DNA from: a virus
Length of the DNA: 23,908 bases
Virus record (IMG/VR): IMGVR_UViG_3300036854_000033
Coordinates: 1-23,908 of that record
Reading direction: 5' to 3' (one strand)
Shown here: positions 1,675-23,518 of the stretch, one piece after another
Numbering within the stretch: the first letter of the stretch is position 1
How the letters are laid out: each line of letters begins with the position of its first letter
Notes under the pieces: generated by a model
Databases searched by the model: none
What the model was told of the DNA's origin: nothing
Seen by the model: the letters and a program-made list of their open reading frames with translations, nothing else
Position numbers and translations under genes: made by a program

Positions 1675-2628
1675 CTAGTGGGCGTGCTCCCCACCGAACG
1701 TGGGGACCGTCCCGCCGCCGCCGCTGCCGGAGACGGCGGCGAGGATCTGGTCGAGCTTGGCGTCCTGCGCGGCCACGTCGGCGGCGAGCTGGTCGACCTT
1801 CGCCTCCACCTGCTTCGCCTTCTGGAACGCGCCCTCCACGCTCGTGTAGTCGTGCGGGTCGAAGTCGCCGCCTTCCCGGTCGCCGACGCGAACGAGTTCG
1901 ACCAGGTCACGGACCCGGCCAATCGACCCGTCGACCACCTGCGAGGGCTTGGTCTTGTCGATCTTCTCGCCGCGGGACAGCATCCGCCAGAAGTCGTCAA
2001 GCATCGCCTGCTTGTCGGCGTCGGACCACTGTGGCCAGGCCATGAAGTCGTCCCCTCCTGTGGTGAACCCGGGCGGCGGGTTGCCGGCCATCGCGGCGAC
2101 CACGCCGTTCCGGTAGGCGGCCATGTCGAAGCTCGGGTCGATTTTCCTTCCGGGCGGGTCGCACGACTCTTTGTGGCCGGGGACGGTCGTCTGCTTCACT
2201 GTCCAGCCCATCACCTGGCAGATGCACGCGACCATCACCTGGTACTCGGGGTAGGCGAACGAGCCCGGCCCGCTAGAGCCCGCCGGGCTCGGCCCGGTCG
2301 CTTCGATCCCGAAGCTCGACCCGTTGCTCGGGAAACCGGACCGGCTCGCGCCCGCGTGGTTGGCCCGGCCGCAGGCGATCACAACCACGTCCCCGTTGGC
2401 GTGCAACGCCCAGGTGCACAGTGGCCCGGGGAGGTCGCTTCGGCCGTTGGCGAGGACCGAGTCGATGTCGCCGGTGCTGGCCGTGTGGTGGCAGATCACC
2501 GCCCACGGGTCCAGGCTCCCCGCGCTCCGGCTCGACCAGCCGGAGTAGTAGGAGCAGCGCAACCCGGCGTCGACCATCGCGTCAGTGCAGGCCCGGACCA
2601 TGTCCGCGAGGGCGCTCATGCTCGCCAT
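1675..2628 (-). CDS. Endolysin, N-acetylmuramoyl-L-alanine amidase
   Basis: A 317-aa protein with an amidase_2/PGRP-type zinc domain over about residues 20-180. It has AVICHHTAST with candidate zinc ligands at H47/H48, GIEATG with E109, and VPGHKESCDPPGRKIDP with H152 and the C156/D157 position, followed by the usual IDPSFDM. It would hydrolyse the lactyl amide between MurNAc and L-Ala. Residues 190-245 form a linker beginning MAWPQWSDADKQAML. Residues 246-299 (VRVGD, DPHDYTSVEG, then a helix with heptad spacing) are shared with the second lysin. The end is Gly-rich and His-tailed (GGEHAH). The ATG at 2628 follows the 53-aa gene stop by 2 nt. It lacks a signal peptide. Confidence 0.9.
   Translation of the reverse strand: MASMSALADMVRACTDAMVDAGLRCSYYSGWSSRSAGSLDPWAVICHHTASTGDIDSVLANGRSDLPGPLCTWALHANGDVVVIACGRANHAGASRSGFPSNGSSFGIEATGPSPAGSSGPGSFAYPEYQVMVACICQVMGWTVKQTTVPGHKESCDPPGRKIDPSFDMAAYRNGVVAAMAGNPPPGFTTGGDDFMAWPQWSDADKQAMLDDFWRMLSRGEKIDKTKPSQVVDGSIGRVRDLVELVRVGDREGGDFDPHDYTSVEGAFQKAKQVEAKVDQLAADVAAQDAKLDQILAAVSGSGGGGTVPTFGGEHAH
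1732..1893 (-). repeat. Shared lysin C-terminal module, copy 1
   Basis: Codes for residues 246-299 of the amidase, the counterpart of 645-808 in the second lysin. DPHDY[ST]SVEG is the most conserved core and is followed by roughly six helical turns ending DAKLDQIL, against DAQLGEAL in the other copy. Confidence 0.65.
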
Positions 2629-2630
2629 GG

Positions 2631-2792
2631 CTAGCCGTCCCCGTCGTCGCCGGGGAGCCGGTTGCGGCGCCACGGACGGACCTGGGACTGGTCGTTCGGG
2701 TCGAGCCGCTGCTCCAAGTACCAGGCGAGCAGGTCGACGACGGAGATCCGGTCCTCGGGGTAGTCCTCGGGCATCGGGTAGTCCTTGGACAT
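2631..2792 (-). CDS. 53-aa first protein of the lysis operon
   Basis: Reads MSKDYPMPEDYPEDRISVVD, then LLAWYLEQRLDPNDQSQV, then RPWRRNRLPGDDGDG. The N-terminal half is acidic and the C-terminal half mixed. There is no membrane segment and no recognised domain. Its stop lies 2 nt before the amidase start, so it is co-translated with lysis genes. The ATG at 2792 is preceded by a G-rich stretch (GGGTGGGGG about 10 nt upstream), a modest ribosome binding site. Function unknown; being the first gene after a promoter-like region makes it a real but uncharacterised gene. Confidence 0.65.
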   Translation of the reverse strand: MSKDYPMPEDYPEDRISVVDLLAWYLEQRLDPNDQSQVRPWRRNRLPGDDGDG

Positions 2793-2831
2793 CGGCGGCG
2801 CACCCCCACCCGGCCGGGTCGGCTACCCCGG

Positions 2832-2865
2832 ATGGTACGCTCACGACGATGGCCAGCCTGACAGG
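2832..2865 (-). promoter_or_regulatory. Promoter candidate for the lysis operon (CCTGTCAGG box, TACCAT -10)
   Basis: On the minus strand CCTGTCAGG (2865-2857) is followed after exactly 19 nt by TACCAT (2837-2832), a TAnnnT-type -10. This would start an mRNA near 2825, about 33 nt before the ATG of the 53-aa gene. The box lies inside the first codons of the divergent whiB gene. The same box and spacing occur before the GT-B gene. Confidence 0.5.
2836..2841 (+). promoter_or_regulatory. -10 element for a leaderless whiB mRNA
   Basis: TACGCT (TAnnnT) lies exactly 7 nt before the whiB ATG at 2849, and there is no Shine-Dalgarno sequence. Transcription would begin at or next to the A of ATG. No good -35 is seen. 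The element overlaps the minus-strand TACCAT of the lysis promoter, sharing the central TA. Confidence 0.5.
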
Positions 2866-3244
2866 TCCCGACCCGGCGCGGGCGGCGTGCCGGGGCGCGC
2901 CCTTGGAGTGGTTCTTCCCCGCCGAGGCGTTCGGCGTCGAACCGCCCGAGCCGGACCCTCGTGCCGTGGAGCTGTGCGAACGGTGCAGCGAGCGGGGCGT
3001 CTGCTTCGCGTGGGCGGTCGCGACCAACTCGGAAGGGACGTTCGGGGGCACGTCCACGGCGCAGCGGCGAGCGCTGTCCCGCCGGTACGCGCGGACGCTG
3101 TGCCCGGTCTGCCGGGAGCCGGACGGGGTGGTCGTCGTCGGCGACCAGCAGGTGTGCATCCGCTGCGCGGTCGCGTGGCTGGCCGCCCGCGTCCACCCGG
3201 CGAGGGCTAGCCGGGAGCGGGCACCTTCCCGCCCCGCTGGATGA
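2849..3244 (+). CDS. whiB: WhiB-family iron-sulfur transcription factor with extra zinc-knuckle-like tail
   Basis: A 131-aa protein and the only plus-strand gene supported. It has the four WhiB cysteines: C14, then CERCSERGVC giving C43, C46 and C52 (Cx2Cx5C), which bind a 4Fe-4S cluster. The turn normally written GVWGG reads GTFGG at 63-67, followed by the basic segment QRRALSRRYAR. Unusually, residues 85-106 contain a second pattern, CPVC then 14 residues then CIRC, resembling a zinc ribbon. Phage WhiB proteins (for example TM4 gp49) are known to act on host whiB targets and superinfection. The ATG at 2849 is preferred over upstream codons because the WhiB domain begins here and a -10 lies 7 nt before it. 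Its last 38 bp overlap the GT-B gene tail to tail. Confidence 0.9.
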   Translation: MASLTGPDPARAACRGAPLEWFFPAEAFGVEPPEPDPRAVELCERCSERGVCFAWAVATNSEGTFGGTSTAQRRALSRRYARTLCPVCREPDGVVVVGDQQVCIRCAVAWLAARVHPARASRERAPSRPAG

Positions 3245-4352
3245 CCAGGGCGTCCGCCCAGGCTTCCCAAAGCCGCCAGGCGTTGTCCGTCCAGGCGAGC
3301 TGCGCGGCGACCTGCCGGCCGGCTTCGGACAGCTCCGCCCGGTCGGCTTCGGAGTGCAGCAGGCGGCGGAGCTTCCGGTACCAGTCCCGGCCGTCCTTGG
3401 CCAGCCAGCCCGCGCCCAGCTTGTGGAGGACCTGGTACTCGGCGCGGGGGGAGGCGACGAACGGGACGCCGCAAGCGGCCTGTTCCAAGCCTTTCCACCA
3501 CGACTTCCCCCGGTTGAACCGCGTGTCCGCTAAGGGGACCATCCCCACGCCCAGGCCGGCGGCGACCGCCTTCGGCCAGTCGAGCAGCCCGATCCCTCCC
3601 GTCCCCGGCGGGTCGGCGTCCAGCCCGAACGCGCGGCCCGCACCCGTCGGGTCACCGACGATCCGGAAGCGGACCCCCTCGGCGACCAGCCGGGGGACGG
3701 CCGGGCGGGTCACCTGCGGGTCGTTCGGGTGGGAGCCCATCGACGCCGGCCAGCCGAGCCAGTCGGAATCCAGGTGGCGGGTGCCGTAGTAGTGGGGGGC
3801 GAGGTAGTTGCGGACGACCCGGCCGCGGCCGTGGGGGGCGTACACCTTAAGCAGCGCGGGGGTGGAGACGGTGACCAGGGTCGCGTCCCGGCACGCGTCG
3901 GCGAGGAACCGCCAAGAGTTGTGGTAGCCGTCGTCGGCGTAGGCGGCCATGGTGACCGCGACGGAGGCACGGCGGCCGGGGAAGCTCGCCGCCGTGGCCT
4001 CCGTCGAGGGGCGGAGCCTACCAGGGTGGAGGCCGACGAAGGCGGGGTTGTCGGGGTGGATCGCGGCCAGGTCGTCGTCGAGGTCGACGACCACGGCGAC
4101 GCCCTTGGACCGCAGGTAGGGGACGAGGGAGGCGACCCGGCCATCGGTGACGCGTTGCAGGACGACCACCTCCGCGTCGGGCGGGTAGTCGGCGTGGACG
4201 ACGGTGCGGCCTTGCAGCCGCATCGGCATCTGCCGCAGCTCCGGGGGGATGACCCGCACGTCCGCGCCGGCTGCGCGGAGGATCCCACCCGGCCAGATCA
4301 GCCGGGTAGAGCCGCAAGCCTGGTCGTCGGCGGGGATCACGTAGACGCGCAC
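3207..4352 (-). CDS. Glycosyltransferase, GT-B fold (GT1/GT4-like)
   Basis: A 381-aa protein. The N-terminal VRVYVIPADD, then STRLIWPGGILRAAGADVRV, is the opening Rossmann strand and helix typical of phage GT-B enzymes. VVVDLDDDLAAIHP (about 88-100) is the acidic strand end. Near the C terminus, GKSWWKGLEQAACGVPFVAS starts at residue 282 and is the nucleotide-sugar-binding signature of GT4-like enzymes, with E290 as the likely key glutamate. It should transfer a sugar from a nucleotide donor; the acceptor is unknown. The GTG at 4352 is chosen because homologous proteins begin at this strand and the codon lies 7 nt after TATAAC; no ribosome binding site is present. It is a single-gene unit after a 125-bp gap, ending opposite whiB. 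Confidence 0.85.
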   Translation of the reverse strand: MRVYVIPADDQACGSTRLIWPGGILRAAGADVRVIPPELRQMPMRLQGRTVVHADYPPDAEVVVLQRVTDGRVASLVPYLRSKGVAVVVDLDDDLAAIHPDNPAFVGLHPGRLRPSTEATAASFPGRRASVAVTMAAYADDGYHNSWRFLADACRDATLVTVSTPALLKVYAPHGRGRVVRNYLAPHYYGTRHLDSDWLGWPASMGSHPNDPQVTRPAVPRLVAEGVRFRIVGDPTGAGRAFGLDADPPGTGGIGLLDWPKAVAAGLGVGMVPLADTRFNRGKSWWKGLEQAACGVPFVASPRAEYQVLHKLGAGWLAKDGRDWYRKLRRLLHSEADRAELSEAGRQVAAQLAWTDNAWRLWEAWADALVIQRGGKVPAPG

Positions 4353-4355
4353 GCA

Positions 4356-4371
4356 CCGGGTTATAACCCGG
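4356..4371. promoter_or_regulatory. Perfect 16-bp palindrome over the GT-B -10 element
   Basis: CCGGGTTATAACCCGG is an exact inverted repeat. It contains TATAAC on both strands, the minus-strand copy being the proposed -10. Such a site could be an operator occluding the promoter, or simply a symmetric -10 able to fire both ways. Confidence 0.4.
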
Positions 4372-4393
4372 CTTGGCCGCCCGTCCTGACAGG
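4360..4393 (-). promoter_or_regulatory. Promoter candidate for the GT-B gene (CCTGTCAGG box, TATAAC -10)
   Basis: The minus-strand CCTGTCAGG (4393-4385), a 19-nt spacer and TATAAC (4365-4360) are followed after 7 nt by the GTG start at 4352, so the mRNA should be leaderless. TATAAC is 5/6 to the housekeeping -10 and is among the most AT-rich spots in this window. Confidence 0.55.
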
Positions 4394-4440
4394 CGGACTG
4401 GTAGCCTCCCGTCGTGGCCCGGTGGGTCGAGCGCGGGGGT

Positions 4441-4473
4441 GGTGGGGGAACACTGACCCGGGCGCTCCCCACC
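4441..4473 (-). terminator. Weak candidate hairpin after the glycosylation operon
   Basis: GGTGGGG (4441-4447) can pair with CCCCACC (4467-4473) around a 19-nt loop, immediately after the stop of the 59-aa gene. There is no U tract and the loop is large, so this is tentative. It separates the glycosylation operon from the next promoter. Confidence 0.25.
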
Positions 4474-4477
4474 GGGC

Positions 4478-4657
4478 TTAGTCGCTGGTTACGCCGCCCT
4501 GGTCGCCGCGGGCGGCTTCCAGCCGCCGGTCCAGGTCCGCGCGGGACGGGTAGGGCGCGTGGCCGTGCTGTAGCTCCTCGCCGTGCTTGTCGGCGCCGAG
4601 CGTGGCGGCGGCCTCCTCCCGCTGCCGCCCGCGCGTGCGGGTGTCCTTGTCAGCCAT
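4478..4657 (-). CDS. 59-aa hydrophilic protein ending the glycosylation operon
   Basis: Reads MADKDTRTRGRQREEAAATL, then GADKHGEELQHGHAPYPSRA, then DLDRRLEAARGDQGGVTSD. It is very charged, without hydrophobic segments. The ATG at 4657 has GAGGAGG upstream and overlaps the preceding glycosyltransferase stop by 8 nt (ATGGCTGA). Codon third positions are almost all G or C except the stop TAA, consistent with coding. No family recognised; probably a small accessory protein. Too short and charged to be an enzyme. Confidence 0.7.
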   Translation of the reverse strand: MADKDTRTRGRQREEAAATLGADKHGEELQHGHAPYPSRADLDRRLEAARGDQGGVTSD

Positions 4658-5369
4658 GGCTGTCCTCCTCGGCCTGGTCGGTTGCGCCTACCGGGCGCCT
4701 GGCGGCGGCGATGTCAGCGTCGCTGCGGGCGTCGCCGCAGTCGGGCCGCCCCGACGTGTTCGCCAGGGCGTGGCCGTTCGGGGCTTCGACGCGCCCGTCC
4801 GGGTCGCGCGGGTCGGCGTGCCAGACCCAGTACCAGGTCCGCTCGGCGACGTGGAAGATCCGCGCGCCGGCCGCGACGCAGTCCAGGGTGAAACGCCAGT
4901 CCTCCCCGCCGTTGGCGTCACCCTGCTCGGGCGGGCTATAGCCGACCTTCTTGGCCAGCTCCGCGCGGACCAGGATCGTCGAGGTGGTCGCGTGCGGCCA
5001 GGCCGGGTCGAACGGCTTGCCGAAGTTGCCGAGCACATCGGAGCAGTAGCGGTCGTCGAACCAAGAAAACACGTAGTCGGCGCCGGCCATGGTCGCCGCC
5101 TGCTCCAACACCTCAAGGTGGCGGCGCTTGAACATGTCGTCTGAGTCGAGCCAGGCGACCCAGTCGGCGGTGACCATGGCCAGGGCGGCGTTGCGGGCCT
5201 GCCAGGAGCCGGCGCCCTGCCGGTCGACGGCGACGACGAGCTGGTCGTAGCAGCGGGTCTGCCGGCCGGCGCTGGCGACCGCCCGGTCGAGCAGGCTCAT
5301 CCCGCCGGGACCGGAAGGGCGCATCCTCGCCGGGTGGGCGGGGATCGCGACGGCGATCGTGCCGATCAC
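4650..5369 (-). CDS. Glycosyltransferase family 2 (GT-A)
   Basis: A 239-aa protein. The N terminus VIGTIAVAIPAHPARM is the first GT-A strand, SLLDRAVASAGRQT is the usual helix after it, and ADWVAWLDSDDMFKRRHLE places the metal-binding DxD-type motif DSDD at 75-78. Later GGEDWRF and the aromatic RTWYWVWH fit the acceptor side. Family role: transfer of one sugar from a nucleotide donor with Mg/Mn. The GTG start at 5369 overlaps the upstream stop as GTGA. An open frame continues upstream but its translation there is not protein-like. It is co-transcribed with two other GT2 genes; the acceptor is unknown. Confidence 0.85.
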   Translation of the reverse strand: MIGTIAVAIPAHPARMRPSGPGGMSLLDRAVASAGRQTRCYDQLVVAVDRQGAGSWQARNAALAMVTADWVAWLDSDDMFKRRHLEVLEQAATMAGADYVFSWFDDRYCSDVLGNFGKPFDPAWPHATTSTILVRAELAKKVGYSPPEQGDANGGEDWRFTLDCVAAGARIFHVAERTWYWVWHADPRDPDGRVEAPNGHALANTSGRPDCGDARSDADIAAARRPVGATDQAEEDSHG

Positions 5370-5539
5370 GACGGCCACCACCAGTAGGCATGCGTGGCCG
5401 CCCGGCCACGCGGGGTCGTCCAGATAGCCAGCTCGTAGACGGCGACCGTCCCGGCCGGGGTGCGGCACCAGGTGAACCTGCCTCGGTCGGTGATCGGCCG
5501 GAACGTGGAGCCCTGCCGGAGCCACGGCTTGACGGTCAC
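5366..5539 (-). CDS. 57-aa protein between glycosyltransferases
   Basis: Reads VTVKPWLRQGSTFRPITDRG, then RFTWCRTPAGTVAVYELAIW, then TTPRGRAATHAYWWWPS. It is short, basic and Trp-rich, with alternating hydrophobic residues suggesting a small beta structure. It begins with GTG overlapping the upstream stop (GTGA) and ends overlapping the next start (GTGA), so it is embedded in the operon and translationally coupled on both sides. No family recognised. That tight packing and sensible codon use are the evidence that it is a gene. Confidence 0.7.
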   Translation of the reverse strand: MTVKPWLRQGSTFRPITDRGRFTWCRTPAGTVAVYELAIWTTPRGRAATHAYWWWPS

Positions 5540-6285
5540 GTCGACAGCCCGTGCTCGCGGGCGAGCCGGTCGCGTTCGACGGCCTGGTCGGCGGCGCTCC
5601 TGTGCCAGATCGGCGCCGACCCACCGGACGTTCCCGTCTGTGCGGCGCTCCCGCCGGTGTTCGCCCCGTGGATGTAGTAGCGCCACGTCCGAATGCCACA
5701 GACATGGTGGAAGCGGGCGCCAGCGTCGAGCAGGCGGAGCAGCAGCCCGTAGTCCTCGCAGTCGCGCGGCCATTCGACGCTGTACGGCTCGGGCATGCCG
5801 CCGACCCGCCGGACCAGGTCGGTCCGGACGAGGTAGGTCACGGGGATGAAGTTGCCAACGTCACGCAGCCAGCGCTCCTGTTCGGGGCCGAACGGCACGT
5901 CGATGGGGCTGGCGACCAGCCGGCCGTGCCAGGGCGCGGCGAGCGGGTCCCGTCCGCCGACGATCACCGGGTAGGAGTAGACCAGGTCGGCGCCGGTTGC
6001 GGCGGCGGCCATGAGCAGGGTGGACAGGTGGTCGGGGAGGAGTTCGTCGTCGTCGTCCAGCCATGCCATCCAGGTGGTCGACACGGCGGCGAGGCCGACG
6101 TTGCGAGCACGGGCAGCGCCCTCCCCGGCATGGTCTTCGACGACGACGATGCTCGCCGGGCGCCTCGTCTGCCGGCCGACGGAGGCGAGCGCGCGGGCGA
6201 GCATCTGCTCCCGGCCGGGGATCGTGGGGGTGACCACGGTCACGTCGGCGGTCTCCCCACCCAGCTCGTGGACTTCAGGGATCAT
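5536..6285 (-). CDS. Glycosyltransferase family 2 (GT-A)
   Basis: A 249-aa protein. ADVTVVTPTIPGREQMLARA at 13-32 is the classic GT2 opening, followed by ASVGRQT and IVVVEDHAGEGAARARNVGL. MAWLDDDDELLPDHL carries the metal-binding acidic motif at 77-80. WPRDCEDYGLLLRLLDAGARF contains the ED pair expected for the catalytic base region. The ATG at 6285 overlaps the preceding stop (ATGA). Role: sugar transfer from a nucleotide donor, probably to virion protein or surface glycan; specificity cannot be read from sequence. Confidence 0.88.
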   Translation of the reverse strand: MIPEVHELGGETADVTVVTPTIPGREQMLARALASVGRQTRRPASIVVVEDHAGEGAARARNVGLAAVSTTWMAWLDDDDELLPDHLSTLLMAAAATGADLVYSYPVIVGGRDPLAAPWHGRLVASPIDVPFGPEQERWLRDVGNFIPVTYLVRTDLVRRVGGMPEPYSVEWPRDCEDYGLLLRLLDAGARFHHVCGIRTWRYYIHGANTGGSAAQTGTSGGSAPIWHRSAADQAVERDRLAREHGLST

Positions 6286-6995
6286 CCGGTGACTCCTCTA
6301 AGGGCTTCGCGGATACGGGCCGCGTCGGCGGGGAAGCTATCACGCTGCCACGCCAGGTACGCGGCCCGGTCCCAGGCGTCCGCATCGGGGTGGTTGACCC
6401 GCCGGTAGACCTCGTCCATGTCCGCCTTCCCCGCCGCAGGGTGGAGGTGCTCGATGACCACCCGGGGGAGGTAGCACAGTTGCTCGGTCGCCTCGCCGAG
6501 CTGCTTCCACGCGTTGTCGACGTACAGGTGCCGCAGGCCCGGCGGGCTCATCCAGCCGAGCGCCCGGACGATCCGGGCGTCCATGAACACGGCGGTCGGC
6601 AGGGCTCGGCGTTGGAACAGGTCGTCGCCGTAGACGATGCCGTAGCCCGTCTGGATCGCGTCCAGGACCATCTGGTCCCAGCCATGGGTGCGGGGGACGT
6701 GGTCGTCGCCCATGAACCCGACCGCGTGGAAGCCGGCCGCGTAGGCGATGGCGTAGTCGTTGAGCGTCCCGCCGAGCGCGCCGGCCGGGTGGCGGGGGGC
6801 TTCGCAGAGCTGCACGTCGGCAGGCCAGCGGGCGGCGAGGTAGGTGTAGGCGGACAGGAGCGGGTCGTCGTCGTCGACGGCGACGACCAGGTGGCCATCC
6901 CCGGTCGTGGTCCGCTGCCACGCGCTGACCAGCCGGGCGACGTTCCCCGCCCGCTGCCGGGACGGGACGATGACGGCCACCTTCGGCCTACGCAT
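6282..6995 (-). CDS. Glycosyltransferase-like protein (GT-A, GT2-related)
   Basis: A 237-aa protein. KVAVIVPSRQRAGNVARLVS is a GT2-like first strand and helix, LVVAVDDDDPLLSAY (37-51) an acidic donor-site loop, and FMGDDHVPRTHGWD (94-107) the DxD equivalent. ALPTAVFMDARIVRALGWMS follows. This resembles the short phage glycosyltransferases that sense a nucleotide sugar with a GDDH motif. The ATG at 6995 overlaps the epimerase stop by 8 nt (ATGCGTAG), and its stop overlaps the next gene's ATG. It is inferred to act in the same glycan pathway as its neighbours. Confidence 0.82.
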   Translation of the reverse strand: MRRPKVAVIVPSRQRAGNVARLVSAWQRTTTGDGHLVVAVDDDDPLLSAYTYLAARWPADVQLCEAPRHPAGALGGTLNDYAIAYAAGFHAVGFMGDDHVPRTHGWDQMVLDAIQTGYGIVYGDDLFQRRALPTAVFMDARIVRALGWMSPPGLRHLYVDNAWKQLGEATEQLCYLPRVVIEHLHPAAGKADMDEVYRRVNHPDADAWDRAAYLAWQRDSFPADAARIREALRGVTG

Positions 6996-7869
6996 CCAGG
7001 GCCATCCTGATCCCCTCGGTGAGCCGGACCTTCGGATGGTAGTAGTCGGTGAGCAGGGTCGGGTCGCCGACGCGGCGCAGCACCCCGGTCGGGGCGCTGG
7101 GCACGTGGCGCAGCGGCGGGTCGTAGCCGGCGGCGGCGCAGACGAGCGCGGCCAGCTCGTCCATCGACGTGCCGATCCCGGTGCACAGGTTCACCGGGCC
7201 GGTGACCTCCTGGGCGGCGAGGGCGAGGGTCGCCGAGACCACGTCGGAGACGTGGACGAAGTCGCGGACCTGCCGCCCGGATCCCCACACCCGGAACGGG
7301 TCGGCCTTCGCGCGGGCGCGGGCGATGAACGCCCCGAACGGCATGCTCACGCTCTGCCCGGTCCCGTAGCCGGAAAACGGCCGGACGATCGTGGTCCCCA
7401 CCCCGGCGGCGCGCAGCTCGGCGCAGAGCATCTCCCCGGTCAGCTTCACCCACCCATACCAGCCGTCCGGGCGGCCGATGAACTCCGGGAACGCCCCGGT
7501 CGGCTGGTCCGCTTCGGCGAGGGGTGGCGCGGCACGGGAGCCTTGCAGGATCGCCGGGTACACCGCGGAGCTGGACAGGTAGACGAGCCGGCGTGGCTTC
7601 GCCTGCGCGGCCCAGCGGACCACGCAGGCGTCCAGGTCGGCGTTCTCGGTGACGGCGAGGCGGCGCCGGTCGATCCGGAGCCGGTCGGTGACCACGGCGG
7701 CGGCGTGGACGACCAGGTCGTAGCTGGTCGCGTCGTCGGCCAGCCAGTCGCGCAGGTCGGTGGCGTAGCCACGCCGGTCGACGCGGGTGGTCGTCCAGCC
7801 GCGCCGGTCCGCTTCGGCGGCGAACGCCTCGCCGAGGAAGCCGGCCGCGCCGAGAACGAGGAGCTTCAT
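6988..7869 (-). CDS. NAD-dependent sugar epimerase/dehydratase (extended SDR)
   Basis: A 293-aa protein. MKLLVLGAAGFLGEAF gives the GxxGxxG cofactor motif at residues 7-13. LVVHAAAVV follows, then RRLVYLSSSAVYP with the catalytic Ser near 99-101, and DGWYGWVKLTGE with the YxxxK pair Y138/K142. RQVRDFVHVSDVV is the conserved RDFVHVxD of nucleotide-sugar epimerases. Length fits the family. It probably supplies or modifies the nucleotide sugar used by the adjacent transferases; the exact substrate is unknown. The ATG at 7869 overlaps the methyltransferase stop (ATGA); a GTG two codons upstream is possible but less likely. Confidence 0.9.
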   Translation of the reverse strand: MKLLVLGAAGFLGEAFAAEADRRGWTTTRVDRRGYATDLRDWLADDATSYDLVVHAAAVVTDRLRIDRRRLAVTENADLDACVVRWAAQAKPRRLVYLSSSAVYPAILQGSRAAPPLAEADQPTGAFPEFIGRPDGWYGWVKLTGEMLCAELRAAGVGTTIVRPFSGYGTGQSVSMPFGAFIARARAKADPFRVWGSGRQVRDFVHVSDVVSATLALAAQEVTGPVNLCTGIGTSMDELAALVCAAAGYDPPLRHVPSAPTGVLRRVGDPTLLTDYYHPKVRLTEGIRMALDA

Positions 7870-8468
7870 TCGCACACCCAGATCCCGAACGTGTAGACGG
7901 CACGCGGGTCGACGGTAGCAACCAGCAGCGGCGCCCAGCCTGCCTTGGCGAGCATGCCGGTCACGTCAGGGATGTCCCACGCCCAGTAGTGCTCCGGGTT
8001 GTCGTCGTCGTGAGCACCGACCGGGGTGGAGGCGACGAGGAAGCGGGCGTGGGGGCGGAGCTGGATGAGCAGCCCGTCCGGGTCGGCGAGGTGTTCCAGG
8101 GTCTCGGAGCAGACGTAGACGCTCGCCTGGCCGAGCATGGCAAGGGAGCCGGGCAGGGAGCCGGGGACGGTGACGCTCGGCACGAGCGGGCTGGTCCGTC
8201 GGACGCCGAGGGCGTCGCCGAGGACGAGCAGGCTCGCGCCGACCTGGGCGGCGAGCACGGCGGGGATCGCGGCGTCGCCGCAGGACAGGTCGGCGACGAC
8301 GGCGAGGGGGACGTGACCAGCGAGGGCGACCGTGGCCAGGCCGACGGTCGCGCGGACCCGGATGCGGTGGTCCGGCCAGGTGTCGTGCTGGTAGCCGTGC
8401 GGGTAGCGCTCGGCGTACCAGCCGGCCTCGTCGGCGGGTGGGCGGAACTCCCGGAGCTGTCGGCGCAC
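7866..8468 (-). CDS. SAM-dependent methyltransferase (class I)
   Basis: A 200-aa protein. VVADLSCGDAAIP at 57-69 is motif I with the Gly-rich SAM loop in a shortened form (DLSCGD instead of DxGxGxG). VYVCSETLEHLADPD at 117-131 matches the motif of Methyltransf_11/12/23 enzymes. FLVASTPVGAHDDDNPEHYW resembles sugar or small-molecule O-methyltransferases. As first gene of the glycosylation unit it may methylate a sugar. The GTG at 8468 has no ribosome binding site but TAGGCT ends 7 nt before it, suggesting a leaderless start. The preceding tail gene ends 10 nt upstream. Confidence 0.8.
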   Translation of the reverse strand: MRRQLREFRPPADEAGWYAERYPHGYQHDTWPDHRIRVRATVGLATVALAGHVPLAVVADLSCGDAAIPAVLAAQVGASLLVLGDALGVRRTSPLVPSVTVPGSLPGSLAMLGQASVYVCSETLEHLADPDGLLIQLRPHARFLVASTPVGAHDDDNPEHYWAWDIPDVTGMLAKAGWAPLLVATVDPRAVYTFGIWVCE

Positions 8469-16791: not shown

Positions 16792-17018
16792 TACAGCCGG
16801 TTCCCGGCCGAGTCCATGCGGGCCAGGCCGGCGTTCGCCCAGAACAGCGCCTCCTCTAGTGCGTGGACGGCCAGGCTCAGCTCCCGGGAGTCAGGGACGA
16901 CCTCGTCGAACAGCGTCGCCAGGTCGAGGGTGTGCGCGCGAAGCGCGGCGTGCTCGGCGGCCTTGTCCTCGTCGGGCGGGTGGTGGGCGAAGCGGTTGCG
17001 GAGGTCGGCAGGGTCCAT
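16791..17018 (-). CDS. Acb2/Tad1-family cyclic nucleotide sponge (anti-CBASS/anti-Thoeris)
   Basis: A 75-aa helical protein. It has the family signatures NRFAHHPP at 8-15 and VPDSRELSLAVHALEEALFW at 41-60, followed by ANAGLAR. These match the Acb2/Tad1 hairpin family, in which small oligomeric proteins sequester cyclic oligonucleotide signals made by CBASS (Acb2) or related signals made by Thoeris (Tad1). Acb2 and Tad1 cannot be told apart by eye, and binding is inferred. The ATG at 17018 overlaps the adaptor stop as TGATG and the stop overlaps the next ATG as TAATG, so it is expressed with virion genes. Length is typical of the family. Confidence 0.83.
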   Translation of the reverse strand: MDPADLRNRFAHHPPDEDKAAEHAALRAHTLDLATLFDEVVPDSRELSLAVHALEEALFWANAGLARMDSAGNRL

Positions 17019-17821
17019 CAGGTGCCCACCCTTCTCGCTGGCGCCCGGTCGACGGAGTAGACCCGGGACCGGCCGGGGAGGCGTCCCGGGTTGGTCGTTT
17101 CGATGAGCAGGTCGCACTGGTACAGGCCGAGCCTGCCGGCCTTGGCGACCTCGGCCGGGTCGGGCAGCTCAATCGAGACGCCCTGGCGGACGAGGCTGGT
17201 CAGGCTGCGGGGAAGCTGGCAGTCCTCCCCCGCGAACGCGCGGAGGAACTGGCAGGCAAGCTCCCCGACGGCGAGGGAGGCGAGCAGGGGCGGGTCCTGG
17301 CCGTAGGCGGCGGTCACCGACCAGGTGCCCGGCTGGTCGTCGTCGGCGGACAGGTCGTTGCACCACGGCCAGGTGCCCCCGTCGGTGCGGACGAGCAGCT
17401 TGTTGTTGTCCACCCGGTAGGCGCTTGCGGGCAGGACCGCCCCGTCCAGCTTGACCTGGTCGACGTGGTGGACGGTCCCGGGGAGGATCACCTCGCTGAC
17501 CGCCGCGCAGGAACAGGGGCCTTGGCAGGCGCCGCAGGCGACGTTGAACCACAGCCCGCCGACCAGGGCGGGCCAGGCCGGTTCCGCGGTGTACGGGCCG
17601 GGCCATTCCGTCCAGCCGACGGGGAGGACCAGGTCGTAGCATTCCCGGCGGCAGGGCCGCAGGGTGGTGGTGCACAGGCCGAACTGCCGGCCGGTCTTCG
17701 CCCACAGGACGTGGGTGGCGGCTTCGACGGCCCGGCCGGTCGCGGTCGGGGAGCCGAGGTCGACGAGGCGCTCACAGGTCGACCAGACGACCGGCCAGGG
17801 TTCGCAGGGTCCGAAGTCCAT
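17018..17821 (-). CDS. Head-to-tail adaptor
   Basis: A 267-aa protein. CEPWPVVWSTCERLVDLGSP, then AVEAATHVLWAKTGRQFGLC, is a helical N terminus typical of actinophage head-to-tail adaptors. LVLPVGWTEWPGPYT, EVILPGTVHHVDQVKLDGAV and LPASAYRVDNNKLLVRTDGG form the beta-rich central part, and LPRSLTSLVRQGVSIELPDP the loop that docks on the portal. It is Cys-rich (about a dozen). The ATG at 17821 has AAGG 6 nt upstream. It is followed in coupled order by the Acb2-like, split connector and gp10-like genes, the usual head-tail joining block. Confidence 0.83.
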   Translation of the reverse strand: MDFGPCEPWPVVWSTCERLVDLGSPTATGRAVEAATHVLWAKTGRQFGLCTTTLRPCRRECYDLVLPVGWTEWPGPYTAEPAWPALVGGLWFNVACGACQGPCSCAAVSEVILPGTVHHVDQVKLDGAVLPASAYRVDNNKLLVRTDGGTWPWCNDLSADDDQPGTWSVTAAYGQDPPLLASLAVGELACQFLRAFAGEDCQLPRSLTSLVRQGVSIELPDPAEVAKAGRLGLYQCDLLIETTNPGRLPGRSRVYSVDRAPARRVGT

Positions 17822-17833
17822 GCTCCACCTTAC

Positions 17834-18181
17834 CTAGATGCTCGGGGGGGGTCCGACAGGCCGGTGCACGTTCCAGCGGACCCGGACGCTGGCGTAGCGG
17901 AGGGTGCCGTCCCCGGCCCACAGCTCACCGACGTAGCGGCCGGGGACGGCCAGGTCCGCGGCCTCCCAGGTGTAGACGACCTCGCCGTCGGCTGGGCCGA
18001 GCGCGGCCGTCCGGCTCACCGGGGCGTCCCTGGCTGCCTGCTCGGCGTAGGCGAAGCGGGCCTGGTAGCCGGTCAGGTTGATCGGGGTGCCGTCGGCGTA
18101 CAGGAACGTGTAGGAGAGTGGGTCGGGGACTTCCCCGGCGACGAACGGGCCGGTGCAGACGGTTTGCGGGGGGCAGCTCAT
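17834..18181 (-). CDS. BppU-like immunoglobulin-fold virion protein
   Basis: A 115-aa protein. YTFLYADGTPINLTGYQARF, then ADGEVVYTWEAADLAVPGRY and WNVHRP, follows the pattern of the N-terminal domain of baseplate upper proteins (BppU), a small Ig-like fold that also appears as a stand-alone virion protein in actinophages. The ATG at 18181 overlaps the stop of the repeat protein as ATGA. Probably a decoration or connector-associated protein; it sits between the large repeat protein and the head-to-tail adaptor. Confidence 0.65.
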   Translation of the reverse strand: MSCPPQTVCTGPFVAGEVPDPLSYTFLYADGTPINLTGYQARFAYAEQAARDAPVSRTAALGPADGEVVYTWEAADLAVPGRYVGELWAGDGTLRYASVRVRWNVHRPVGPPPSI

Positions 18182-20553
18182 CGTGGTTCTCCTGACTCCT
18201 GGCCGGTGAGGAACCGGCCAGGCTCGCGGCCGGTGAGGCTGCTCGGCGGCCTGGGCGCAGCGACCGACCGGCGGGGCTCCCGGCCGGTCAGGGCGGTCGC
18301 TGGTTCTTCCCCGGTAGTGTGCGGGTCTGGTTCGCGGCCGTGGCGGTAGATGCGGGACAGGATCGCTGCGGGCACCCGCCCGGTCGAGGTGGTCAGCGAC
18401 CGCTGGGTGAGGTGGCCGGCGGCGAGGACCCGCCGGACCGCCAGGCTGCTGGACGTGGCCCGCTGGGCGGCGCGGGCCACTCCGGCGGCGAGTTTCCGGT
18501 CGGTCCCCGCACTCGACGTACGCTGGTCGGCGCGGCCGGACGCGGCGGCGACCTTCCGGCCGGTCGCGCTGGTCGCCGTCCGCTGGGAGGCGACCGCCGT
18601 GGCGGCGCGGACGGCTGTGCCGGTCGCGCGCGTTGCCGTCCGCTGGGGGCTGAGCGCGGCGGCGGCCGGTGCCTTCTGCCCGGCTGCGGTGGCCGTGGTG
18701 CGCTGCTCAAGCCGTGGCGCGCTGCCGAGCAGCTTCGTCGCGGTCGTCGACGCCCGCTGGACGAGCTGGGCCGCGCCGGTCGTGAGCTTCTTGGCGGCGA
18801 GGCTGTCCGCCGATCGCTGAGCGGCGACCGCCGCGCCCGTGGTGAGCTTCTTCCCGGCCGCCGTTGCCGTGGTCCGCTGGACGGCCTGGCCGGCGCCAGC
18901 CCGGACGGCGACGGCGGCAGCGGTCGCCGCCGACCGCTGCGCGGCGGTCGCCGCTCCCGTGGTCGCCTTCGTCGCCGCCGAGGTTGCGGCGGTCCGCTGC
19001 TCGGCCCGGGGCGCCGCCTGGCCACGTTTGCTGCTCGTCGCGGCGACCGTGGAACGCTGCGCGGCCGTCGGGGCAGCCTGGCCGCGCTTGCTGCTCGTCG
19101 CCTGGTCGGTCGACCGCTGGGCAAGCGCGGGGCTTGCCTGGCCGGTCTTTGCGCCAGAAGCCTGCGTCGCCGACCGCTGGGCGAGCTGGGCGCTGCCGCC
19201 CCGTGCCACGGTCGACGAGCCCTGCTCCCGGGTCTCCGACCGGACGGTGAGCTGGGCCGCGCCGCTGGCCAGTTTCGCTCCGGTCGCCGCCGCCGCGGTC
19301 CGCTGGGCGAGCTGGCCGGTCCCGGCGCGGCTGGTCGGCCCGGCAGTCGCGGTCGCGGTGGACCGCTGGGCAAGCTGGGGGGTGGCCTGGCCGCGTTTGA
19401 CCGCGGTGGTGGTCGTCGCGGTCCGCTGCTCAGCGCTCGGGGCCGCCTGGCCGCGTTTGACCACGGAGGCGACCCCGGCGGACCGCTGGTCGGTCCGGCC
19501 GGCGCCGGTCGTGAGTTTCTTCCCCGCCGCGGTCGTCATGGTCCGCTGGGCGGCGACGGGCGCGCTGCTGGCCAGCTTCGTGCCGCTGCCGGCGGCGACG
19601 CTGCGCTGGGCTCCCAGGGCCGCGCCGGTCGTGAGCTTCGCGCCCGAGGCGGTCGTCGCGGTCCGCTGCGCCAGGCTGGCCGGGCCGCCGTGCACGGCGG
19701 CGACGACCGCGATCGTGCCCAGCTCCAAGCTGCCCGGCTGGGCGCCCCGGGTGCCGAGCTGGGCGCCGCCGAGCGGGGACGGGATACCGGCCCTGGCCGT
19801 CCCCGCCGAGGTAGCCTGCGCCCTGGTGACCAGGTGCCACAGCAGCGGCGGCGGGGGGAAGGACTGGGCCGCCTGCCCCGCCGCTGCTGCGACCGCCGGG
19901 CCAGGCCAGGTCGTGTCCGAGTCGCCGAGGTCGTCGAACCAGGCGGTGATGCCGGACAGGCCGGTGCCGGTGTGGCCGTAGCGGACCCGGTCGGTCGCCG
20001 AGATGGTGTTGAACACGACCGGGAGGATCGTCTCGGTCGGGGTTCCCGGGTCGTCCATGGAGGTCCACAGGCGGACTTCGACCACGCCGTTGACCGTGTC
20101 TCCGAAGAAGCGGGCCTCCACCCGGACCCACTGGTTCAGGGGGATCACGGTCGTCCCCGTCCCGCCGGAGGGGGTGTTCCCGACCGAGTCGCGGACGATG
20201 AGCTGCCGGCTGGGGTTCAGGCTGACCGACGCGAGGGAGCTGGCGCCCGACAGCCAGCGGATCACCTGGAAGGTCGCCGAGGGGGACGCGTCGACGAACA
20301 GGTAGGCCCGCTCAAAGTGGGTGGTGAACGAGCCGCCGAGGGAGGTCGTCCAGGAGCAGTAGCACTCGGCGAGGCTGCCGCCGAGGGACATCTTGAAGCT
20401 GGTGCTGCCGTGGGCGGCGTGGGTTGAGTCGTAGGTGGCGGTCGCGCCCGTGCCCGTGGTGACCAGGTCGAGCTGGTTCCCGCCGCCGCCGGAGTTGGCG
20501 GGGGTGATCCCGGTGCCGTTGGGACCCTCCAAGGCGTTGGTGAGCAGGCCCAC
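18178..20553 (-). CDS. Large virion-associated protein with lectin-like domain and about 22 20-residue repeats
   Basis: A 791-aa protein in three parts. Residues 1 to about 215 are beta-rich, with LNQWVRVEARFFGDTVNGVV and WFDDLGDSDTTWPGP, a LamG/concanavalin-like pattern. Residues 216-295 are an Ala/Gly/Pro linker. Residues 296-736 are degenerate tandem repeats, nearly all exactly 20 aa, each beginning QR[ST] and often continuing as xAxGxKLTTGAAxxA. The last 55 residues carry a second motif, [HT]GxE[PS]. The repeat tract has no aromatic residue before its last position, about 60 basic against about 10 acidic residues, and is mostly Ala, Thr, Ser and Gly. It could be a fibre, a disordered polyanion-binding tail, or both. 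The GTG at 20553 is assumed; its ribosome binding site is weak. Confidence 0.75.
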   Translation of the reverse strand: MGLLTNALEGPNGTGITPANSGGGGNQLDLVTTGTGATATYDSTHAAHGSTSFKMSLGGSLAECYCSWTTSLGGSFTTHFERAYLFVDASPSATFQVIRWLSGASSLASVSLNPSRQLIVRDSVGNTPSGGTGTTVIPLNQWVRVEARFFGDTVNGVVEVRLWTSMDDPGTPTETILPVVFNTISATDRVRYGHTGTGLSGITAWFDDLGDSDTTWPGPAVAAAAGQAAQSFPPPPLLWHLVTRAQATSAGTARAGIPSPLGGAQLGTRGAQPGSLELGTIAVVAAVHGGPASLAQRTATTASGAKLTTGAALGAQRSVAAGSGTKLASSAPVAAQRTMTTAAGKKLTTGAGRTDQRSAGVASVVKRGQAAPSAEQRTATTTTAVKRGQATPQLAQRSTATATAGPTSRAGTGQLAQRTAAAATGAKLASGAAQLTVRSETREQGSSTVARGGSAQLAQRSATQASGAKTGQASPALAQRSTDQATSSKRGQAAPTAAQRSTVAATSSKRGQAAPRAEQRTAATSAATKATTGAATAAQRSAATAAAVAVRAGAGQAVQRTTATAAGKKLTTGAAVAAQRSADSLAAKKLTTGAAQLVQRASTTATKLLGSAPRLEQRTTATAAGQKAPAAAALSPQRTATRATGTAVRAATAVASQRTATSATGRKVAAASGRADQRTSSAGTDRKLAAGVARAAQRATSSSLAVRRVLAAGHLTQRSLTTSTGRVPAAILSRIYRHGREPDPHTTGEEPATALTGREPRRSVAAPRPPSSLTGREPGRFLTGQESGEPR
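18181..18345 (-). repeat. C-terminal [HT]GxE[PS] motif repeats
   Basis: The last 55 codons of the 791-aa protein hold HGREP, TGEEP, TGREP, TGREP and TGQES, three of them preceded by L. They are spaced irregularly (about 7 to 16 residues) and are distinct from the 20-residue repeats. At DNA level the block is seen as recurring CGGCCGGT-like strings. Confidence 0.6.
18346..19668 (-). repeat. About 22 degenerate 60-bp tandem repeats
   Basis: Units start at a CAG-CGG (QR) codon pair that recurs every 60 bp, with units of 18, 21 and 22 codons as the only length exceptions and one copy starting VR instead of QR. The first unit starts at 19668 and the last (22nd) at 18405. Sequence between QR pairs is diverged, so the period is kept more strictly than the sequence. 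Confidence 0.85.
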
Positions 20554-20562
20554 GGCAGCCGC

Positions 20563-21225
20563 CTAGTTGAGGATCTTGCAGCGCAGCTCGTTGGTGACGA
20601 CCTGGTTCGACGCCGAGCTGGCGCCCCACGTCGCGGAGACGCCGATCGCGCGTTCGATGGTCGTGTTGACCCCGGCGACGGCCCTGAGCGCGGCGGTGAC
20701 CGGGAACGGCGCCTCGGCGTTGAAGGTGGTCAGGCTCGCGCCGAACTGGTACTGGCCTTGGCCGTGGAGGGCGCCGGCCGTCCCGATCGCGGTGCAGAAC
20801 CCGGCCCATTCCAGCCACCACGGCCACGCCGCCGGGGTCGTCCCGGTGGTGAACGGCGAGCCGAGGGCGACGTCGCCGGTGATTACCCCGGCGCGGTCGC
20901 CGAACCACAGCCCAAGGGTGAGGATCGCGCCGGTGAGGGAGGAGTATTCGCCGTGGGCGCGGACGTACAGCTTCGTGCCGATGCGGAGCTTCCCCGCAGG
21001 GATGACGGGGAGGGGTTGGGGGCTCACGTCCTTCTTGGCCGTGAAGGTGTTGAACGCGGCGCCGACGGCGGTGTGGAAGGGTGGGACCGGCTCGACCAGG
21101 TAGAAGTCCAGGCCACCGGCGATCCTGGGGATTTCCCGGCCGTGCCGGTCGTAGCCGACGATGCCCGGCTGCAAGGCTTCCTCGCGGCGGGGCCGGTCGA
21201 GCAGGTACGCCTTGCGGGGGTCCAC
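20563..21225 (-). CDS. Virion structural protein, beta-rich
   Basis: A 220-aa protein. VDPRKAYLLDRPRREEALQP starts it, GGLDFYLVEPVPPFHTAVG follows, and RIGTKLYVRAHGEYSSLTGA, then ILTLGLWF, looks like one half of a jelly-roll or carbohydrate-binding beta sandwich. GTTPAAWPWWLEWAGFCTAI and QGQYQFGASLTTF complete it. The GTG at 21225 has a strong AGGAGG 7 nt upstream, starting at the stop of the preceding gene. Not assigned to a named family; the context (virion genes on both sides) makes a particle component likely. Confidence 0.65.
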   Translation of the reverse strand: MDPRKAYLLDRPRREEALQPGIVGYDRHGREIPRIAGGLDFYLVEPVPPFHTAVGAAFNTFTAKKDVSPQPLPVIPAGKLRIGTKLYVRAHGEYSSLTGAILTLGLWFGDRAGVITGDVALGSPFTTGTTPAAWPWWLEWAGFCTAIGTAGALHGQGQYQFGASLTTFNAEAPFPVTAALRAVAGVNTTIERAIGVSATWGASSASNQVVTNELRCKILN

Positions 21226-21236
21226 GTCGCGGCCTC

Positions 21237-21995
21237 CTAAACCGGGCCTACGTCTTCGACGAGCTGGTGGGTGATCGACTGCCAGTCGGACGTGACCGTT
21301 GCCGCCCCGGACGTCTTGGACATCTGCCACTTGAACTGCAGCGTCGCCGGGGTCGGGCCGGTCACGTAGTCGAGCATCTGTGGCGCGACCCCGTAGCGCA
21401 TCGTCTGGGCGACCTGGGCGCGGACCAGGTAGGTCGGGCCGGGGGGGACGTCGGCGAACGCGCCGCCGCCGACGGACACGACCCACTTCGCCTGCCAGGT
21501 GTCGGCGGTCGAGAAGCCGCTGCCGCCGATCAGCAGGTTGGCGGCGAACCAGACGAGGACCTTGAGGCGCCGGTTCACCCCGGGGGTGAACACCCCTCCG
21601 GTGACGATGTCGGAGTAGACCCCGGCGGTGGTGGACAGGGTGACGTTGCCGCCGGTCGCCTTGTCCAGCCAGCCTTTCGCGGCCCGGTCGTCGATCGTGC
21701 GGGCGAGGGTCGCGGCGGAGAGGACCTGGTAGACGGGCGCACCCGGGGAGTGGGCGACCGGGCTGGTGCCTTCCAGGCCACGGCCTCCTGCGAGGATGGA
21801 CAGGGTCGTCCCGGCGATCGTGTCGACTTCCAGGCGTTCGTCGTCGATGACGAGCAGGAACGGCCCGGCGGCAGGCAGGTAGGTGGCCACGTCCACGGTC
21901 GGAGTGGCCGCCCCCGACGCGGCGATGGCGCTCGTCAGGGTCGCGTTGGGGGCTTGCGGCAGGGGGCCGTTGGAGAACTGGACGGGGGTCGCCAA
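21237..21995 (-). CDS. Virion/tail-associated protein with RGLEGT motif
   Basis: A 252-aa protein. FLLVIDDERLEVDTIAGTTL, then SILAGGRGLEGTSPVAHSPG and APVYQVL, is a segment common in actinophage tail-fibre and virion proteins. The C-terminal 130 residues are beta-rich (FKWQMSKTSGAATVTSDWQS). It starts with the rare codon TTG at 21995, preceded by GGGGGTGGG, giving ATPVQFSNGPLPQAP after the start; no better start exists before the upstream stop. Probably a structural or fibre-attachment protein. Confidence 0.65.
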   Translation of the reverse strand: MATPVQFSNGPLPQAPNATLTSAIAASGAATPTVDVATYLPAAGPFLLVIDDERLEVDTIAGTTLSILAGGRGLEGTSPVAHSPGAPVYQVLSAATLARTIDDRAAKGWLDKATGGNVTLSTTAGVYSDIVTGGVFTPGVNRRLKVLVWFAANLLIGGSGFSTADTWQAKWVVSVGGGAFADVPPGPTYLVRAQVAQTMRYGVAPQMLDYVTGPTPATLQFKWQMSKTSGAATVTSDWQSITHQLVEDVGPV

Positions 21996-22203: not shown

Positions 22204-22833
22204 TCACCCGGGCAGGCTGACGGTGAGGGCAGTCACCTGGTACTGGCCGGCGCCGCCGAACACTTCGCTGGTGAGCAGCTGGATGTCGCCGTCGCCGATC
22301 GCGGTCAGGTCGATCGCGGCGCCGCCGGAGGTGAGGGCGAGCTGCAAGGTGTCCGCGGTCGCGCCGACGACGAAGTAGACGATCCCCTCAGCCAGGGGGG
22401 CAGGCAGGCCCGCGCCGATCGTCGGCCAGACGGCCACCTGGTTGCCGTTGACCAGGCCGTGCGTCGCCGAGGTGAGCGTGTTCGCAGTCACGTCGGCGGC
22501 GTCGACGCTGAACGCGCGGCGGGCCGCCGACCCGGCGGGGACGAACCCCCGGAAGGTCCCCGCCGTGATCGCCGACCAAAGGCCGACGTAGAGGACGGTC
22601 ACGCCGGCCGGGACCGTGAACGTGTACGGGGTGCCGGACAGGCTCTTCGCCCCCGCGCTCGCCGCGGCCCAGGTGACGGGCAGGCGGGCGTAGCCGCCGC
22701 CGGCCAGCTCGTTCGCGCCGGTCGTCGACGGGTCACCGGAGTGGAGGCTGATGTGGGTGACCAGGGTCGCCAGCCCGGCCGCGCTGCCGTCGAGCAGGGC
22801 GTTCTTGGTCGGGTCGGTGAGGACGGCTGCCAC
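22204..22833 (-). CDS. Tail-fibre-like protein
   Basis: A 209-aa protein. THISLHSGDPSTTGANELAG, then GGYARLPVTWAAASAG, is a segment found across phage and prophage tail-fibre-like proteins (Gp77-like group). GTPYTFTVPAGVTVLYVGLW and FRGFVPAGSA complete the first jelly-roll-like half, and the second half from about residue 110 (DAADVTANTLTSATHGLVNG) is another beta domain. The GTG at 22833 has AAGGGAG upstream, right after the preceding stop. It sits directly after the tail-tube-like gene. Confidence 0.72.
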   Translation of the reverse strand: MAAVLTDPTKNALLDGSAAGLATLVTHISLHSGDPSTTGANELAGGGYARLPVTWAAASAGAKSLSGTPYTFTVPAGVTVLYVGLWSAITAGTFRGFVPAGSAARRAFSVDAADVTANTLTSATHGLVNGNQVAVWPTIGAGLPAPLAEGIVYFVVGATADTLQLALTSGGAAIDLTAIGDGDIQLLTSEVFGGAGQYQVTALTVSLPG

Positions 22834-22846
22834 GCCCGGCTCCCTT

Positions 22847-23518
22847 CTAGGTCAGGACCGTCCCGCCGCACACGGGGATCGGCGGCGCGGTCGTGGTCAC
22901 CGCGGCCAGCCAGTGCTCCCCCGTCTGGACGGTCGCCGGGGTGATCCAGCTGGTTCCCGTGCCAGGGCCGTCCCCCCACAAGGTTGACGGGGCGAACGTG
23001 TCGCCGATGAACTGGACGGTGGTCGGCTCGTTGGCGACGTTGTGGTCGCCGAGGCGGCCGTTCCCCACGTTCGGCCAGGCGTTGTAGAGGAACTGCTGCA
23101 CCCCGGTCGGGGAACACGCCCCCGCCCCGGCGATCCGCTGCCACACCTCAAGGGACCAGTGGTTCGCGCTCGCGCCTTCCTTGAGGGCGAAACCGGCACC
23201 GGTGACCAGGGGGGAGCCGACGGACAGCAGCCGCATGCTCAGGCCGAGTTCCATCATCTCCGGGTCGATGGTGCACAGGTCGACGGTGAGGGTGATGCGC
23301 TTGAGGATGTCCGGGTCCTTCTCGTTGATGCATAGGGCTCCGGCGGCGTTGCGCTGGATGAACTCGTCCCCGTCCTCGTACTGCGGGCTCTGGCCGATCT
23401 GGATGAACCCTTCGGAGACGATCACCTTCCCGGCCGCTCCGGTGACGGGCACGCCGCACGTGTCCAGCTTGACCATCCGCATGACCGTGCCCTTGATCGG
23501 GCTGACGCACTGCGACAT
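22847..23518 (-). CDS. Major tail protein (tail tube)-like
   Basis: A 223-aa protein. MSQCVSPIKGTVMRMVKLDT, YEDGDEFIQRNAAGALCINE, LKRITLTVDLCTIDPEMMEL and SLEVWQRIAGAGACSPTGVQ, followed by QFLYNAWPNV, correspond to a family I know as actinophage major tail proteins, with conserved Cys residues. If correct, it polymerises into the tail tube. The oddity is position: it lies upstream of the connector genes, and no tube gene is present between the gp10-like gene and the chaperone, where it is expected. A related capsid-side structural protein is the alternative. The ATG at 23518 follows the previous stop by 15 nt. Confidence 0.6.
   Translation of the reverse strand: MSQCVSPIKGTVMRMVKLDTCGVPVTGAAGKVIVSEGFIQIGQSPQYEDGDEFIQRNAAGALCINEKDPDILKRITLTVDLCTIDPEMMELGLSMRLLSVGSPLVTGAGFALKEGASANHWSLEVWQRIAGAGACSPTGVQQFLYNAWPNVGNGRLGDHNVANEPTTVQFIGDTFAPSTLWGDGPGTGTSWITPATVQTGEHWLAAVTTTAPPIPVCGGTVLT

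Follow-up and report, generated by a model that had tools for sequence, protein, structure and literature searches.

Phage fibers largely determine which cells get recognized, and the fiber shafts known so far are mostly collagen-like, coiled-coil, or triple-beta structures. In lactococcal phage TP901-1, the BppU_N domain of BppU docks on the baseplate. Fiber I of phage GP4 is reportedly a neck fiber, in which a rope protein is said to link or thread gp80-type units. LSH1 has a gp80-like fibril together with an Ig-fold module, and appendages with polarity opposite to that of classical trimeric fibers have been suggested (PMC13243795). Bead-chain neck fibers exist in cyanophage A-1(L) (PMC10966104).

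The stretch of DNA analyzed here (the window) is a virus contig of 23.9 kb, in which the interval between the genes for the major tail protein and the head-tail adaptor (the slot) encodes a protein with 20-residue repeats. Its locus shares elements with several known systems. Like GP4 fiber I (PF23140, gp80) and gp34-36 of LSH1, the appendage block combines a gene of the gp80 type with one for a small Ig-type protein, but no GP4 chain matches the repeat protein, and the gp80 likeness belongs to the neighbor gene alone. Homology places the neighboring small protein in BppU_N, the domain of BppU in TP901-1; unlike BppU, it is a separate small protein or, in one relative, is fused to a GDSL esterase, and its gene lies beside that of the adaptor instead of downstream of Dit. 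Like the collagen-like and coiled-coil fibers (PF01391; L272, L274, and phage Sunny), the protein combines a long low-complexity periodic rod of variable length with globular domains in the slot, yet its period is 20 rather than 3 or 7 and no family model covers it. In Microbacterium phage Leaf, gp66 resembles it in slot, 20-residue period, N-terminal enzymatic or binding head, and a phrog_1084-type small protein next to it, and differs in unit (GGxxWSGxAxG; profile P = 0.09), in its phosphodiesterase head, and in a tract that is not cationic. These comparisons suggest an undescribed version of a known type of part, an interchangeable appendage shaft, rather than a new mechanism.

Gene neighborhood of the repeat protein

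All virion genes of the window lie on the minus strand. The gene order is major tail protein, gp80-type protein, two or three open reading frames (ORFs), repeat protein, 115-aa protein, and head-tail adaptor, beyond which lie genes for the tape measure, a Dit-type protein, and other tail proteins, and then two endolysin-type genes. The relevant features are as follows.

22847..23518, minus: major tail protein (phrog_792, E = 2e-37; alignments)
22204..22833, minus: GP4 fiber I gp80-like protein, in the slot (PF23140, E = 5.6e-10, above the cutoff; phrog_240)
21237..21995, minus: virion structural protein, in the slot (phrog_23837, E = 3e-6; phrog_1101, E = 2e-5)
20563..21486, minus: further slot ORF (ORF only; true start probably downstream of 21237)
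18178..20553, minus: whole ORF of the repeat protein, 791 aa, a proposed virion appendage protein
19888..20553, minus: N-terminal head, aa 1 to 222, a probable ConA-like (lectin-type) beta-sandwich, weak (single-sequence AlphaFold2 and Foldseek)
19669..19887, minus: linker, aa 223 to 295 (sequence)
18349..19668, minus: QR repeat tract, 22 units of 20 residues, aa 296 to 735, proposed stalk
18178..18348, minus: C-terminal tail with repeated TGREP motif, aa 736 to 791 plus stop, proposed docking (conserved in contigs L304 and L315)
17834..18181, minus: BppU_N-type small protein, 115 aa, proposed virion-docking partner (45% identity to L315:14125-14463)
17018..17821, minus: head-tail adaptor (phrog_783, E = 3e-69)

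The repeat gene, which starts with GTG, thus stands between the genes for the major tail protein and the head-tail adaptor, in agreement with the initial annotation of its product as a virion-cluster protein. The adaptor matches 846 phage records, nearly all of them actinophages. The 115-aa protein has its own BppU_N match below the cutoff and matches phrog_1084 at E = 0.0027; the slot ORF at 20563..21486 has no family match.

An old 20-residue register

The tract comprises 22 units, 21 of which open with QR (residues 296 to 717) and one with VR (residue 437). Its self-identity reaches 0.37 at lag 20 and 0.30 at lag 40 (maximum over 500 shuffles, 0.22), its autocorrelation peaks solely at these two lags, and runs of four QR pairs spaced exactly 60 bases apart number 11 in the window versus 0 in 100 shuffles. 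The spacing is 20 residues in 18 of 21 cases and 21, 22, and 18 in the remaining three; the repeats described earlier as about 22 and strictly spaced are therefore right in number and period, the strictness being overstated. Composition is as first reported (about 60 basic versus 10 acidic residues, free of aromatics until the last residue): the tract is rich in Ala, Thr, Ser, and Gly, contains 62 Arg plus Lys versus 10 Asp plus Glu between aa 296 and 735, with Arg in each unit and Lys in most, and lacks Phe, Trp, and Tyr except for the final residue, Y735. A charge-hydropathy test places it marginally on the ordered side.

At positions where two adjacent units agree in amino acid, they use the same codon at a frequency of 0.589, versus 0.536 expected from codon usage (z = 1.3), and for distant units the corresponding values are 0.546 and 0.545. 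Since codon choice at shared residues matches the codon-usage expectation, the units are old and their synonymous sites saturated, and QR, K11, and A7 persist across them despite this saturation. The Arg codon of QR varies (CGG, CGC, CGT, or CGA), which places the constraint on the protein rather than on the DNA; the Ser and Thr codons after QR vary too. The 20-residue register is old and maintained at the protein level. Saturation thus bears out the divergence seen earlier between QR pairs and, together with the varied QR codons, the proposal of selection on the register rather than recent slippage.

Homologues with a common tail and neighbor

Two further slot proteins were recovered from the IMG/VR contigs L304 (identical to L306, also from IMG/VR) and L315, whose major tail proteins are 45 to 46% identical to that of the window. 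Their open frames encode 642 aa in L304 and 766 aa in L315, and both, like the window protein, score highest at lag 20, with identities of 0.32 in L304 and 0.33 in L315. The window, L304, and L315 repeat proteins have a GREP-motif tail in common: the C-terminal tails VLSRWPVTAARTRVQGREPVTAVSGREP... (L304) and VLTRYPVTTVRTRIRGREPVTV... (L315) align to ILSRIYRHGREPDPHTTGEEPATALTGREP... of the window with z of 7.5 and 6.9, respectively, in local alignments against shuffles, none of 500 shuffles aligning as well. The gene that follows encodes a homologue of the 115-aa protein (45% identity, E = 4e-26, in L315; 40% identity, E = 1.5e-14, in L304). L315:14125-14463 passes the Pfam BppU_N cutoff (E = 4e-7), and in L304:12430-14322 the BppU_N-type domain is joined to a GDSL/SGNH esterase (E = 7e-12).

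The repeat unit of L304 and L315 reads TxYxPxxxVAVxAGxAAATG. Its resemblance to the window unit is merely suggestive: the profile comparisons score P = 0.07 to 0.18 against column-shuffled profiles, and the comparisons with L304 and L315 both select one register, with the conserved TG pairs aligned. Extension of the tail alignment into the last unit gives nearly that register, with TG 4 to 5 residues before the tail. Because the two registers nearly agree, we treat the repeat units of the window and of L304/L315 as probably homologous; since the unit profile does not exceed shuffles, homology of the proteins rests on the tail, the neighbor gene, and synteny. The heads differ, the window having its own, L304 another, and L315 almost none. 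Basic and acidic residues in the repeat tracts number 0 and 1 in L304 and 1 and 14 in L315; these tracts are nearly uncharged, and the cationic character of the window tract is therefore local and not conserved.

A variable slot between the major tail protein and the adaptor

Both flanking genes were found in 78 viral contigs, in 43 of which the slot is in effect empty (shorter than 150 bases) and in 21 at least 1 kb long. It is empty in the cultured phages MementoMori, Phorgeous, Salete, and Pam4; holds a phosphoesterase in Hendrix, Rasputia, and StrawberryJamm, an SGNH hydrolase in ReqiPine5, and a GDPD protein in Leaf; carries collagen fibers in L274 and L272, the latter matching Pfam Collagen at 1e-14; and in Sunny encodes a heptad-like tract with a period of 14 residues. 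Repeats of 20 residues are found in the slot proteins of Leaf, L278, L304/L306, and L315. As a control, of 1,197 frames from elsewhere in these contigs, 37 exceed the periodicity threshold, and only 2 of the 37 peak at lag 20. The slot is variable, and rods are swapped between phages at this one locus. Because it is empty or repeat-free in some cultured phages, the repeat gene is accessory. The initial annotation had named, as refuting its reading, homologues lacking the tract at this locus in phages with normal virions; repeat-free loci do exist in viable phages (empty in MementoMori, occupied in Hendrix by an enzyme without repeats and unrelated to the repeat protein), yet they leave the fiber reading unrefuted.

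Leaf gp66, annotated as a minor tail protein, has a GDPD domain followed by the 20-residue repeats, and the small protein after it matches phrog_1084 weakly (E = 0.015). In L278, a gene of the gp80 type (E = 3.5e-4, below the cutoff) lies close to that for the major tail protein. Unit profiles of the window, Leaf, and L278 showed no similarity beyond composition, and since they match no better than shuffles, we do not call Leaf and L278 homologous to the window.

Other slot contents were also observed. The slot protein L313:10122-11612 has 23-residue repeats (VDTAAARLALRAAVTTVDLGAAT-like), a period other than 20. L315:10790-11344, also in the slot, encodes a carbohydrate-binding domain (CBM_4_9, E = 1e-7), and the slot protein L278:4662-5561, without a Pfam match, looks glycoside hydrolase-like by eye.

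Searches for relatives and fold

The initial annotation recognized no described family with this unit, and database searches agree: the repeat protein has no family match in Pfam (none at E = 0.01), PHROGs, or NCBIfam and no match to any PDB chain, GP4 included. Whole-protein searches of viral contigs, genome contigs, phages, plasmids, and the PDB returned no relative. The head alone matched nothing in phages, and in 396 actinobacterial genomes it matched just fragments with in-frame stops (E of about 0.01). In viral and genome contigs, a DNA pattern of QR at 60-base spacing yielded, among the matches listed, chance matches and 60-base CRISPR-like arrays, and a profile search over all sequences fetched from the pattern scans found no relative of the repeat protein. 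The adaptor had no match in 296 actinobacterial genomes, and its alignment is too diverse for use in a pattern search. Literature searches on tail fibers turned up no 20-residue repeats.

A single-sequence AlphaFold2 model of the head is all-beta, with about 14 strands and a pLDDT of 40. Its Foldseek matches lean to ConA-type folds (legume lectins, a sialidase CBM) and include coronavirus spike chains, the best at E = 0.009 and none below E = 0.001; the head has no Pfam match. A lectin-like domain upstream of the repeats, as first suggested, is plausible on this model, the lean of the matches pointing weakly in its direction. The AlphaFold2 model of the repeats, built from a three-row alignment, has a pLDDT of 52, shows a long helix over part of its length, and is unreliable. 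Both models being of low confidence, no fold is established for head or repeats. Beta-type alternation of conserved positions reaches significance for the Leaf units (P = 0.007) and, in residue size, for those of L278, but not for those of the window (P = 0.13 to 0.20), L304, or L315; therefore, we claim no secondary structure.

Two known shaft types were considered for the tract and rejected: a collagen-like fiber (period 20, without Gly-X-Y and without a Pfam match) and a coiled-coil stalk (no heptad or hendecad beside the peaks at 20 and 40).

A probable modular appendage component

The best explanation, and in our judgment quite a probable one, is that the repeat protein is a modular component of a fiber or other appendage of a long-tailed actinophage, made up of a head, a 22-unit stalk, and a docking tail. 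The periodic fiber proposed initially finds support in the register, the slot, and the homologues with lag-20 repeats. A globular, probably lectin-like N-terminal head would sit on an elongated stalk and bind or process envelope sugars. The 20-residue period would serve as a structural register that sets shaft length and stacking, letters between the anchors could drift freely, and the shaft would be exchangeable for collagen-like or coiled-coil rods. The short conserved C-terminal tail may dock to the particle via the BppU_N-type neighbor. We infer presence in the particle, polarity, oligomeric state, and sugar binding; the appendage may sit at the neck, as in GP4 fiber I and A-1(L), or on the tail.

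One sub-case of this explanation, which we consider possible if rather doubtful, casts the protein as the rope or linker of a GP4 fiber I-like neck fiber at the head-tail joint, holding gp80-type units, instead of a tail-tip or side fiber. A gp80-type gene (PF23140) in the gene block of both the window and L278, next to the adaptor gene, would fit such a rope, as would the comparable gp80-like and Ig-fold module of LSH1 (PMC13243795) and the precedent of bead chains on the neck of A-1(L) (PMC10966104). Against it, the slot ORFs scanned in L304 and L315 (part of the ORFs) include no gp80-type match, and gp80-type domains are widespread in actinophages. A related and equally tentative idea is that the 20-residue unit represents a distinct, undescribed actinophage shaft fold to which three or more unit types unrelated in sequence (window/L304/L315, Leaf, and L278) have led within this one slot; in the window, it might serve as a neck-fiber rope stringing gp80-type units.

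An old, low-complexity, largely disordered linker that spaces the head from the particle, with no defined repeat fold, appears improbable. The Ala/Thr/Ser/Gly-rich composition, the poor AlphaFold2 models, and the units of 18, 21, and 22 residues could all be expected of it, but a 20-residue register that persists through synonymous saturation is rare for disordered spacers, period 20 recurs both in homologues and in unrelated slot proteins, and charge-hydropathy places the tract just among ordered sequences. Least probable of all is a cationic tail binding anionic polymers (teichoic acids, capsule, or packaged DNA) with an incidental period: the net charge of +52 over 440 residues, with an Arg in each unit and a Lys in the majority, invites this reading, first put forward in the initial annotation, but as a conserved function it is not supported, given the essentially uncharged homologous tracts of L304 and L315 and the net charges of -7 in Leaf and -4 in L278, period 20 being retained and charge not.

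A recurrent 20-residue shaft unit in an exchangeable slot would add a shaft type to those described. This interval, bounded by the genes for the major tail protein and the adaptor, is a defined place in which to seek host-recognition modules in unclassified actinophages.

Additional observations

The 60-base-spaced CAGCG pattern in genome contigs (L164, L174, L205, and others) corresponds mostly to CRISPR-like repeat arrays of 60 bases, which are a trap when 20-residue repeats are sought by pattern. In the window, the two endolysin-type ORFs are adjacent on the minus strand (546-2000, phrog_13480, E = 6e-21; 1675-3501, phrog_880, E = 2e-29). Between the tail and lysis genes, positions 3207-8468 of the minus strand may form a glycan-modification block, judged by eye from the translations: four ORFs look glycosyltransferase-like (3207-4472, 4650-5705, 5536-6285, and 6282-6995), followed by a possible NAD-dependent epimerase (6988-7875) and a possible methyltransferase (7866-8468).
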